From NCBI RefSeq assembly GCF_936916975.1, contig NZ_CAKZGO010000042.1, forward strand, positions 1-64,000: 64,000 bases of DNA, in the 5' to 3' direction. The DNA is from an uncultured Dongia sp. GTDB lineage: Bacteria > Pseudomonadota > Alphaproteobacteria > Dongiales > Dongiaceae. Position numbers and translations under genes: made by a program. Positions 34,834 to 39,238 of the stretch are shown here, piece after piece. A model generated the notes under the pieces. The model was given only the letters and a program-made list of their open reading frames with translations. It did not search any database and was not told where the DNA came from. Every line of letters starts with the position of its first letter. The stretch's first letter is position 1.

Positions 34834-35532
34834 CTACAGCTCAGCGACGGCCCGCCATTTGGCGGCGGAGAGGTCATCGACCTCGGCGGTGGAGTTCAGA
34901 AAATAATCTTCGATCACGAGACACCGATCGACCGCGGTCGGTCCTCTGAACGGGCAGATGAGATATTCTGTTTTCAGCCTGGGCTCACCGTCCACGATCG
35001 AGAGGGCCATGCCGGCGCCGGCCAGGCCGCTCTCTCTGACGGCACGATAGGCTTCCTTGATAGCCTCGAGATTGAACTGGTCCATCTGCAATTCGTCGAG
35101 GTAATGGCCGACGAAATCCAACCCCGTAAACCTGATGACCTCTTTGCCCACCAAGCGATAGAAGACCCGGAGCGGCTCGCCGGACAATTCGACGACCATG
35201 ATATTCGGCAGCACCACGTGCAACGCCGCCGGATCGACATCGTCATATGCCGGTAGCCCGTCCTGGGCCAGATCTTGCCAGTAGCTGAACAAGAGGCGGA
35301 GCCGCGGCGATTGAAACCGTGGGCTCAGCTCGCGATTGATCAATTCAAAGAAATCTTCGGTGGCCGTCGATCTGTCCAGGCGCTGATAAGGCGAGACGAA
35401 GAGAGCGGCTTCGTCGATCGCATCAGAGACTTTCGATTGCTGTCTGTTCTGCTGGCGGAAGGCATCGAGCGCGTCCCAGCCAGTTGATCTGCCAGTTGAT
35501 CTATCTGGCGACCTATCAGGATCTTTTCCCAT
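34834..35532 (-). CDS. PAS-type sensor protein (PAS_5-like), copy 1
   Basis: A 232-residue soluble protein. From about residue 78 it shows the pattern SPRLRLLFSYWQDL...PAYDDVDPAALHVVLPNIMVVEL...LRVFYRLVGKEVIRFTGLDFVGHYLDEL...AYRAVRESGLAGAGMA...LKTEYLICPFRG...CLVIEDYFL, a single-domain PAS variant common in Rhodospirillales. The N-terminal 75 residues are charged and low-complexity, encoded partly by a 12-base tandem repeat (GCCAGTTGATCT twice, 35479-35502). The ATG at 35532 follows GGGGGG. There is no output domain, so it probably acts through a partner. It is closely related to the protein at 36391. Confidence 0.78.
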   Translation of the reverse strand: MGKDPDRSPDRSTGRSTGWDALDAFRQQNRQQSKVSDAIDEAALFVSPYQRLDRSTATEDFFELINRELSPRFQSPRLRLLFSYWQDLAQDGLPAYDDVDPAALHVVLPNIMVVELSGEPLRVFYRLVGKEVIRFTGLDFVGHYLDELQMDQFNLEAIKEAYRAVRESGLAGAGMALSIVDGEPRLKTEYLICPFRGPTAVDRCLVIEDYFLNSTAEVDDLSAAKWRAVAEL

Positions 35533-35715
35533 GCTACCCCCCCATCCGCATGTCCGCCTCAGGACTAACGCGTGCACTGTCGATTGGTTGCGGTGGTGGT
35601 GAAATATAGGCTGACGGGCTCGGGCGTCAGGGTCGGGCTAGCGCCGGACCACCATTCCCGTCAAAGCGCTGCGTGTCGTCTTGCGGCAAAGGCCAGAGGT
35701 TCTCATCGGCAGTGC

Positions 35716-36390: not shown

Positions 36391-36930
36391 TTGACAATTG
36401 ACGACACCGCAACTGGTTCCTTTTTCGACTTGGTTCGGACAGGCTTGCCGGCCAGCCTTCGATCGGTGCGCCTTCGCGCCTTCCACGAATATTGGCTCGG
36501 ATTGGCGAACGGTGACGTCCCTGCACGTGGCGATATCGACCCGGTAATGATCAAGCCGCTGCTGCCCTATATGATGATGGTCGATCTGACCGAAGAGCCG
36601 ATGAGAGTTCTTTACCGTCTGGTCGGGACCGAGGTCGTTAGTTTTACCGGGTTGGAGTTCACTGGGCATTACCTCGATGAACTCGACTTCGATGAGTTCG
36701 ATCTGGGGAATCTGACAGATGCGTATCGGGCCGTTCGAGATGCGCGCCTGCCTGGGGCAGGTCTCGCGCAATACCGCGAGAACGGGTTGCTGCTGATCGA
36801 GACCGAGTATCTGATTTGCCCGCTCAGATCCGGATCGGGCAAGATCGACAAATGCGCGGCGATCGAGGATTACTTCCTTGGCGGCACATCCGTCTTCCAT
36901 CTGCCGCCGGCGCGCTTTCGGCGCAGCTGA
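36391..36930 (+). CDS. PAS-type sensor protein (PAS_5-like), copy 2
   Basis: A 179-residue paralogue of the protein at 34834, on the opposite strand. It repeats the domain from about residue 24: SVRLRAFHEYWLGL...DIDPVMIKPLLPYMMMVDL...MRVLYRLVGTEVVSFTGLEFTGHYLDEL...AYRAVRDARLPGAGLA...IETEYLICPLRS...CAAIEDYFLGG. It lacks the low-complexity N-terminus of copy 1. The start is uncertain: TTG at 36391 is the only in-frame start before the domain and its ribosome site is poor. The Pho-box array of the next gene begins ten bases past its stop. Confidence 0.72.
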   Translation: MTIDDTATGSFFDLVRTGLPASLRSVRLRAFHEYWLGLANGDVPARGDIDPVMIKPLLPYMMMVDLTEEPMRVLYRLVGTEVVSFTGLEFTGHYLDELDFDEFDLGNLTDAYRAVRDARLPGAGLAQYRENGLLLIETEYLICPLRSGSGKIDKCAAIEDYFLGGTSVFHLPPARFRRS

Positions 36931-36939
36931 AGCGTTGCG

Positions 36940-36979
36940 CCGTCATCCAGCTGTCATTATTTCGCAATCCACCCGTCAC
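36940..36979 (+). promoter_or_regulatory. Pho-box array: four 11-base units
   Basis: CCGTCAT-CCAG-CTGTCAT-TATT-TCGCAAT-CCAC-CCGTCAC: seven-base elements at exact 11-base spacing, three of them matching the PhoB half-site CTGTCAT/C with at most two changes. PhoB boxes are direct repeats of CTGTCAT with four-base linkers, so the period is diagnostic. The array sits 55 bases before a phytase-like gene, as expected for phosphate-starvation control. Confidence 0.75.
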
Positions 36980-37033
36980 GGTCGAGAGCTACGCAATGGT
37001 CTCTCCACATTTGCGGGATAGGGATAGATTCGC

Positions 37034-39238
37034 ATGACACTCGTCGGAAAGACGGCGCTGCTCGCAGCGCTCTTCGCCAGCACGGCTTTGACGCCGGCTT
37101 TTGCCGATTCCTTCAACCGGATCGCGACCTTTCATGTCGTCGACAACCTGCCGGCGGATGCCGACCCGAAGGTGCCGACGGTGTCCGAGATCATCACCGC
37201 CACCGAAGACGGCATGACGCTGGTCTATACCGACAGCCCGGGTGAGCGCATCGGCCTCATCGACATCACCGATCCCAAGGCGCCGAAAGCCGCCGGTACC
37301 GCGGCATTGGGCGACGAGCCGACCTCGACCGTCGTCATCAAGGGCAAGGCGCTGGTCGGTGTCGTGACCTCCGAGACGAAGGCGGCACCCGCCGGTCATA
37401 TCGCTGTCGTCGATCTCGCCAGCAAAAAGGTCGAGCAGAGCTGCGATCTCGGCGGCCAGCCGGATTCGGTCGTGCTCAGCCCGGACAAGACATTCCTTGC
37501 CGTCGTCATCGAGAACGAGCGCGATGAAGAAGTGAACGAAGGCGCGATCCCGCAATTGCCGGGTGGCAATCTCACGGTCTTCCAGCTCAAGGACGGTGTG
37601 TTCGATTGTACGACGAAGAGGGTGGTCGATCTCACCGGCCTTGCTGCCATCGCACCGGAAGATCCGGAGCCGGAATATGTCGATATCAATGCCAAGAACG
37701 AAGCGGTGGTGACGCTGCAGGAGAACAACCACATCGCGCTGGTTGATCTTGCCAGCGGCAAGGTGACGGCGCATTTCTCGGCCGGCACGGTTGATTTGAA
37801 GAACATCGATACCAAGAAGGACAAGGTCATCAGTCTCACCGGATCGATGGACGGTGTTGCGCGCGAGCCGGACACGGTGCAGTGGGTCGATAACGACCGT
37901 TTCGTCACCGCCAATGAAGGCGACTGGAAGGGTGGCAGCCGAGGTTTCACGATCTTCAACAAGGATGGCACGGTCGATTACGATAGCGGTACGCAACTGG
38001 AATATCTGACCGTGCGTCTCGGCCATTATCCCGAAGGGCGCAACAAGAAGGGCAACGAGCCGGAAGGTGCGGAAGTCGCCACCTTCGGCAGCGACCGGAT
38101 CATTTTCGTGGCGTCAGAACGCGCCTCGCTGGTTGGTGTCTACAAGGATGCGGGTGCCGGCAAAGAACCTACTTATCTGCAGGCGCTGCCGGGCGGCATC
38201 GGACCGGAAGGCACGCTGGCTCTCCCGGCGCGCGACCTGTTCGTGACGGCGGCAGAAAACGATCTGCGCGAAGACGGCCTCATCGGGTCGGTGGTGACGC
38301 TCTATCAGCGTTCGGCCGACGCGCCCGCGTATCCCACCATCGTCTCCGCGGACAGCGATGATGGCCTGCCGATCGCCTGGGCGGCACTCTCAGGCGCTGC
38401 AGCCGATCCGAAGACGCCCGGCAAAATTTATGAGGTGAGTGACAGCGCCTTTGCCGAAGCGCAGATTTTCACCATCGACGCCAATGCCAAGCCCGCCGTG
38501 ATCACCAGCGCGCTTACCGTCACCAAGGATGGCGCGCCGGCGAAGCTGTTGGATCTTGAGGGGATTGCGGTGGCGAGCGATGGCGGCTTCTGGCTCGCCT
38601 CCGAAGGCAATCCGGAACGCGAGAAGGATCCCACTGAAAACCATCTGATCAAGGTCGCGGCGGATGGCAGCATCGAACAGCAGATCGCTCTGCCGAAGGA
38701 ACTGGCGGCGCAGGCTGTACGCTTTGGCTTTGAAGGTGTCGCGGTCACCGGCAGTGGTGCAGACGAGACCGTCTGGCTGGCTGTGCAACGCGAATGGAAG
38801 AATGATCCGAAGGGCTTCGTGAAGCTGCTCGCCTACAAGCCCGCCGATCAGGCCTGGGGCCAGGTGCACTATCCGCTCGACAAGGCAGAGAAGGGCTGGG
38901 TCGGCCTCTCTGAAGTGACGGCCGCGAAAGATGGGCTGGTGTTCATCGAACGCGACAACCAGGTCGGCCGTGATGCGAAGATCAAGCAGCTGACCTTCGT
39001 GCCGCTCAAAGGTGTGATGCCGGTGGCACTCGATGCAACCGACGTTCCGGTGGTGACGAAGACGGTGGTGCGGGACCTGTTGCCCGAGTTGCGTGTGCCC
39101 GGCGGCTATGTGCTCGACAAGGTCGAGAGCTTTGCCATCGATGCGGCGGGCGAGGCTTTCGTCATCACGGATAATGACGGCGTCGACGACCACTCCGGCG
39201 AAACGCAGTTCATCCGGCTGAGCAAGCCCGTCCTATAG
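37034..39238 (+). CDS. Secreted phytase-like esterase / alkaline phosphatase-like protein
   Basis: A 734-residue exported protein with signal peptide MTLVGKTALLAALFASTALTPAFA. The first 430 residues are blade-like repeats (HIAVVDLASKKV, SPDKTFLAVVIENERDEEVNEGAIPQLPGGNLTVFQL, PDTVQWVDNDRFVTANEGDWKGGSRGFTIFN), a choice-of-anchor/alkaline phosphatase propeller. The C-terminal half (LLDLEGIAVASDGGFWLASEG, GFEGVAVTG, LDKVESFAIDAAGEAFVITDNDGVDDHSGETQFIRL) is the esterase-like phytase domain. It probably releases phosphate from organic esters outside the cytoplasm. The Pho-box array upstream fits this role. The exact substrate is not known. Confidence 0.85.
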   Translation: MTLVGKTALLAALFASTALTPAFADSFNRIATFHVVDNLPADADPKVPTVSEIITATEDGMTLVYTDSPGERIGLIDITDPKAPKAAGTAALGDEPTSTVVIKGKALVGVVTSETKAAPAGHIAVVDLASKKVEQSCDLGGQPDSVVLSPDKTFLAVVIENERDEEVNEGAIPQLPGGNLTVFQLKDGVFDCTTKRVVDLTGLAAIAPEDPEPEYVDINAKNEAVVTLQENNHIALVDLASGKVTAHFSAGTVDLKNIDTKKDKVISLTGSMDGVAREPDTVQWVDNDRFVTANEGDWKGGSRGFTIFNKDGTVDYDSGTQLEYLTVRLGHYPEGRNKKGNEPEGAEVATFGSDRIIFVASERASLVGVYKDAGAGKEPTYLQALPGGIGPEGTLALPARDLFVTAAENDLREDGLIGSVVTLYQRSADAPAYPTIVSADSDDGLPIAWAALSGAAADPKTPGKIYEVSDSAFAEAQIFTIDANAKPAVITSALTVTKDGAPAKLLDLEGIAVASDGGFWLASEGNPEREKDPTENHLIKVAADGSIEQQIALPKELAAQAVRFGFEGVAVTGSGADETVWLAVQREWKNDPKGFVKLLAYKPADQAWGQVHYPLDKAEKGWVGLSEVTAAKDGLVFIERDNQVGRDAKIKQLTFVPLKGVMPVALDATDVPVVTKTVVRDLLPELRVPGGYVLDKVESFAIDAAGEAFVITDNDGVDDHSGETQFIRLSKPVL

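Follow-up and report, generated by a model that had tools for sequence, protein, structure and literature searches.

Does the row of short direct repeats in front of an exported, phytase-like protein gene of a Dongia-like bacterium act as a PhoB-activated promoter, and does the gene serve the acquisition of phosphorus? The question arises from a preliminary description of the window (the whole stretch of DNA that was analysed, 64 kb long), in which four 11-base Pho-box units were reported upstream of a gene taken to belong to the Pho regulon.

The repeat array and the Pho promoters of the host

Positions 36940-36979 read CCGTCAT-CCAG-CTGTCAT-TATT-TCGCAAT-CCAC-CCGTCAC on the forward strand, with an exact period of 11 nt and linkers of 4 nt. 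The Pho boxes of E. coli and Sinorhizobium meliloti likewise consist of 7-nt units in 11-nt repeats (PMC4415409). The units were scored with a weight matrix built from five other Pho promoters of the host (pstS-family, phoX, CYTH-CHAD, ppk and pstS-pstC), the window array being left out. Half-site 1 (CCGTCAT, 36940-36946) obtained 10.1 bits, half-site 2 (CTGTCAT, 36951-36957, a perfect consensus) 11.9 bits and the promoter-proximal half-site 4 (CCGTCAC, 36973-36979) 8.3 bits, so that slots 1, 2 and 4 are good PhoB half-sites (+8 to +12 bits), whereas slot 3 (TCGCAAT, 36962-36968) is degenerate at -2.4 bits. The spacing and the letters reported in the preliminary description therefore stand, while the third slot is not borne out as a true unit, and the four units are really three good units and one poor slot. 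A search of the window for CTGTCATN4CTGTCAT gave a single match with 1 mismatch, which is the array; at up to 3 mismatches there were 6 matches against 3.5 expected, a number so near the chance count that 3-mismatch matches alone are uninformative. The array is more than chance.

The 5.48-Mb genome of the host contains the two-unit pattern in 7 places at 1 mismatch and, at up to 2 mismatches, 48 times against 13 for the reversed control. When the search was made for CYGTCAYN4CYGTCAYN15CYGTCAY with up to 2 mismatches, only 3 places were found in the whole genome and 0 for the reversed control. These are the window array, a site before a PstS-family gene (C4:752366; TIGR02136 157 bits, below the cut-off of 206.6, and PF12849 above its cut-off) and a site before a gene for a PhoX phosphatase (C6:147776; PF05787, 521 bits). 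The third slot is poor in all three (ACGAAAA before the pstS-family gene, CCGGCCC before phoX and TCGCAAT in the window). Two-unit sites are also located before a CYTH-CHAD gene and before ppk, and the pstS-pstC gene has weaker units in front of it. Scanning with a PhoB matrix from the host's own pst and pho promoters, which had been proposed earlier as a check, placed 36940-36979 first in 225 kb of host DNA on both strands; the scanned DNA was chosen partly for its pattern matches, and the genome-wide comparison consists of the pattern searches and the fetched stretches. The host has a phoB gene (342 bits, above the cut-off) that is adjoined by phoU, pstB and pstSC.

Some other host loci may be mentioned here. 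The TIGR00975 profile found no PstS in the host, and TIGR02136 gave two. Beside phoU-phoB on the minus strand (L119:8718-11036, contig C36) there is a 772-aa frame, apparently a PstS-PstC fusion, with the PstS match (PF12849) in its first part and the PstC match (TIGR02138) in its last. The host carries two PhoX genes in tandem, and about 50 nt before the second lies a weaker four-slot array (L127:3664-3703, contig C6) of CGGTCTT, TCGTCAC, TTGACCC and GTGTCAT, the third slot again being poor. The gene of a CBS-domain histidine kinase, a second signalling gene that is possibly under Pho control, has a Pho-box pair with 1 mismatch (L120:6802-6819, C4:331801) 24 nt upstream of its ATG. Pho-box-like pairs before both the CYTH-CHAD gene and the ppk-ppx genes (L121:6986-9197, contig C7) point to polyphosphate metabolism as a part of the Pho regulon of the host.

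Core promoter, conservation and origin

No ordinary sigma-70 promoter was found on the forward strand at this position. A probable -10 hexamer, TACGCA (36990-36995), lies 10 nt after the last half-site and is a weak match to TATAAT; it has no -35 hexamer, as is usual for PhoB-activated sigma-70 promoters. At all three host places a -10-like hexamer is found 10 nt after the last unit (TAATAA for the pstS-family gene, TATCTG for phoX and TACGCA in the window), and across the promoters of 60 homologues the -10-like score is highest at this same offset of 10, with 5.1 as against 0.5-3.7 elsewhere. A probable ribosome-binding site, AGGGA (37020-37024), is placed 9 nt before the ATG. The upstream PAS_5 (MopJ-like) gene (36391-36930, forward strand) ends 9 nt before half-site 1 and is outside the promoter. 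Control of this gene by the array was considered and ruled out, as the array sits past its stop codon. It is one of two PAS_5 genes, the other at 34834-35577 on the reverse strand, that flank a hemerythrin gene just upstream of the Pho promoter.

The region 36940-36995 is thus very probably a PhoB-activated promoter that places the gene at 37034 in the Pho regulon, a reading on which the pstS-family and phoX promoters of the host, the conservation in homologues and a likely orthologue (SMc01907) agree with the preliminary description. At low phosphate, phosphorylated PhoB would bind head-to-tail on the 7-mer array with its 11-nt period, and the promoter-proximal half-site at 36973-36979 would stand in for the -35, bring sigma-70 RNA polymerase to the -10 at 36990 and so start transcription of the gene with a short leader. 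The exported product would then most likely hydrolyse phosphate esters, and the Pst system would import the phosphate that is released. PhoB binding, induction, the start site and the catalytic activity are here inferred. Such a switch is of an ordinary, already known kind and its mechanism is textbook.

To see the array among relatives, 80 homologues with 55-83% identity, almost all from Hyphomicrobiales, were fetched, and 79 had enough upstream sequence. In 58 of the 79 (73%) the 250 nt upstream contained a box with at least 12 of 14 matches on the sense strand, as against 0 of 79 reversed or reverse-complemented upstream regions and 14 of 3160 windows (0.4%) elsewhere in the homologue loci; linkers other than 4 nt occurred in at most 5% of the upstream regions, and in 7 of the 79 the best box reached only 10/14. 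The homologues are related, so these counts are not independent events, although the sequence around the boxes differs widely. Between 2 and 5 units are detectable per homologue, about half having only two, which puts the four slots of the window inside normal variation. In the closest homologues, from a Dongia MAG (L039) and a Bauldia MAG (L040), the four slots recur and the third is again poor (CCGCAAT and CGGCAAT). Upstream of the distant copy in a second species of the host genus no convincing box was found. One further copy, on a contig titled Bacillus subtilis SK6B4, is nearly identical to that of Pseudochrobactrum; the record is probably mislabelled or contaminated.

Two other readings of the array have to be weighed against a PhoB promoter of this layout. 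The functional box may consist only of the first two units (36940-36957), with chance letters in the other two slots and a start site further upstream. The many homologues with just two detectable units and the poor slot 3 speak for such a box, but slot 4 is good and in phase, and the same spacing of 10 nt between slot 4 and the -10 is seen in the phoX and pstS-family promoters of the host as well as in the Dongia and Bauldia MAGs, while the hexamer at the same offset from unit 2, TCCACC (36968-36973), is not -10-like; we regard the two-unit box as quite unlikely. More improbable still, to the point of being nearly negligible, is that the array is a chance similarity or belongs to another regulator of the OmpR type. 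The PhoB family profile has about 17 full-length matches in the host, and other members of the family also bind direct repeats. Against this, the layout is common, genome-wide, only to the pstS-family and phoX genes and the window site, and the box is conserved upstream of the homologues. We therefore retain the PhoB-activated promoter with its proximal half-site at slot 4.

Of 17 genomes from the host family, 3 have the gene; all three belong to the host genus, and one of them has the distant copy (54%). In a quick tree of the homologues, made with FastTree only, the proteins of the window and the Dongia MAG nest with Bauldia in a Kaistiaceae-rich clade of Hyphomicrobiales with local supports of 96 and 95. 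Among the fetched homologues a neighbourhood with a FecR gene is common only to these same two. The simplest reading of this tree is that the gene was probably acquired from Hyphomicrobiales together with its promoter.

The exported product and its probable activity

The gene (37034-39238, forward strand) encodes, as judged from the open frame, the profiles and a structure model, an exported double beta-propeller protein of 734 aa. It begins with a Sec-type signal peptide, MTLVGKTALLAALFASTALTPAFA (37034-37105), read from the sequence and probably cleaved between AFA and DS; residues 1-21 are of low confidence and unstructured in the AlphaFold2 model, which is otherwise nearly all beta (mean pLDDT 89.8, pTM 0.90). 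Residues 448-715 match PF13449 'Phytase-like' (E = 7e-55, 187.3 bits against a cut-off of 27.6), and the earlier statement that an exported protein with a phytase-like domain lies downstream is thereby confirmed. The N-terminal half matches choice-of-anchor I (NF038117) with E = 1e-30 and 106.7 bits, where the cut-off is 300; the protein is not a member of that family, but the likeness is real. The choice-of-anchor I profile also gave a match in Synechococcus elongatus, an organism with a known atypical alkaline phosphatase, which may or may not be the protein matched. At E <= 0.001 PF13449 and choice-of-anchor I were the only profile matches of the window protein, and none was obtained to the family models of the established phytase classes (His-acid, beta-propeller PF02333, PTP-like, purple acid). 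A structure search with the model returned only beta-propellers, of WD-type and similar, and when the homologue profile was run against the sequences of the PDB, the matches were likewise generic propellers only, namely hydrazine synthase beta (E = 5e-5) and a surface-layer protein. Since the structural matches are generic propellers only, they have no bearing on catalysis.

In Sinorhizobium terangae the homologue is found in the order lon-hup-X, lon being identified by PF05362 and others and hup read from the sequence. The lon gene of S. meliloti is SMc01905 (PMC8175422), and for SMc01907, a putative alkaline phosphatase, a strong, PhoB-dependent induction at limiting phosphate is reported (PMC3596328). 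By this gene order and the numbering, SMc01907 is the probable orthologue of the window gene, and the regulation of its family is therefore probably already known in another species. At first SMc00620 ('phytase type', PMC8829014) was regarded as the counterpart; it gave way to SMc01907 on the basis of the lon-hup-X order.

The protein is likely to have phosphoesterase activity. Across 29 homologues both halves contain many invariant Glu/Asp/Arg motifs, for example ENERDE (160-165), ANEGD (293-297), EG (509-510 and 567-568), ERDN (639-642) and TDNDG (712-716). Such acidic and basic motifs would fit a metal-dependent phosphoesterase at the axis of the propeller. In Nodularia a protein annotated as 'atypical alkaline phosphatase (esterase-like activity of phytase family protein)' belongs to those whose genes are strongly induced when phosphate is limiting (PMC9846622). 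The scavenging of phosphate from organic esters, as the preliminary description had it, is plausible, its grounds being only the family name, the export and the regulation.

PhoB may instead control a gene for a binding or anchoring beta-propeller with no phosphoesterase activity, which we consider the less probable course at a rather low but appreciable likelihood. Double propellers are often non-catalytic, the fold search yields nothing beyond generic propellers, and in its N-terminal half the protein is similar to choice-of-anchor I and YncE-type proteins. On the other side are the many invariant motifs in both halves, the annotation of the S. meliloti counterpart as a putative alkaline phosphatase (PMC3596328), and the place of the annotated PF13449-type phosphatase of Nodularia among its most strongly P-induced genes (PMC9846622). 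Keeping to the phosphoesterase, we would suggest with some reserve that the window protein may belong to a class of secreted, Pho-induced two-propeller phosphoesterases that is uncharacterised and widespread among the Hyphomicrobiales, and that a Dongia-like bacterium may have received it from them along with its PhoB promoter.

Comparison with known systems

The earlier observation is correct and its interpretation largely so, the locus being an ordinary PhoB promoter before a phosphorus-acquisition gene. What is gained is a confident regulation, and hence a likely role in phosphorus acquisition, for a large alphaproteobacterial family known mainly under the possibly misleading name 'phytase-like'. 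The layout of the array also seems to have survived a probable transfer from one order to another.

The window array resembles the PhoB Pho boxes of E. coli and S. meliloti in unit sequence, 11-nt period and direct orientation. As with the window and host sites, those boxes replace the -35 and precede pst, phoX and ppk-region genes; the window array differs from them by its four slots with a degenerate third. With SMc01907 of S. meliloti the gene shares its Pho regulation, and the lon-hup-X order makes the two probable orthologues, but its own context is another, between the PAS_5 gene and FecR/parE genes. The C-terminal domain is shared with the PF13449 'esterase-like activity of phytase' proteins (187 bits against 27.6), from which the window protein differs by the extra N-terminal propeller with its sub-threshold likeness to choice-of-anchor I. 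To the beta-propeller phosphatases and phytases (PhoX PF05787 and PF02333) it is similar as a secreted propeller with conserved acidic motifs and, for PhoX, in its Pho regulation, but it has no sequence match to either, and the two PhoX genes of the host are separate from it.
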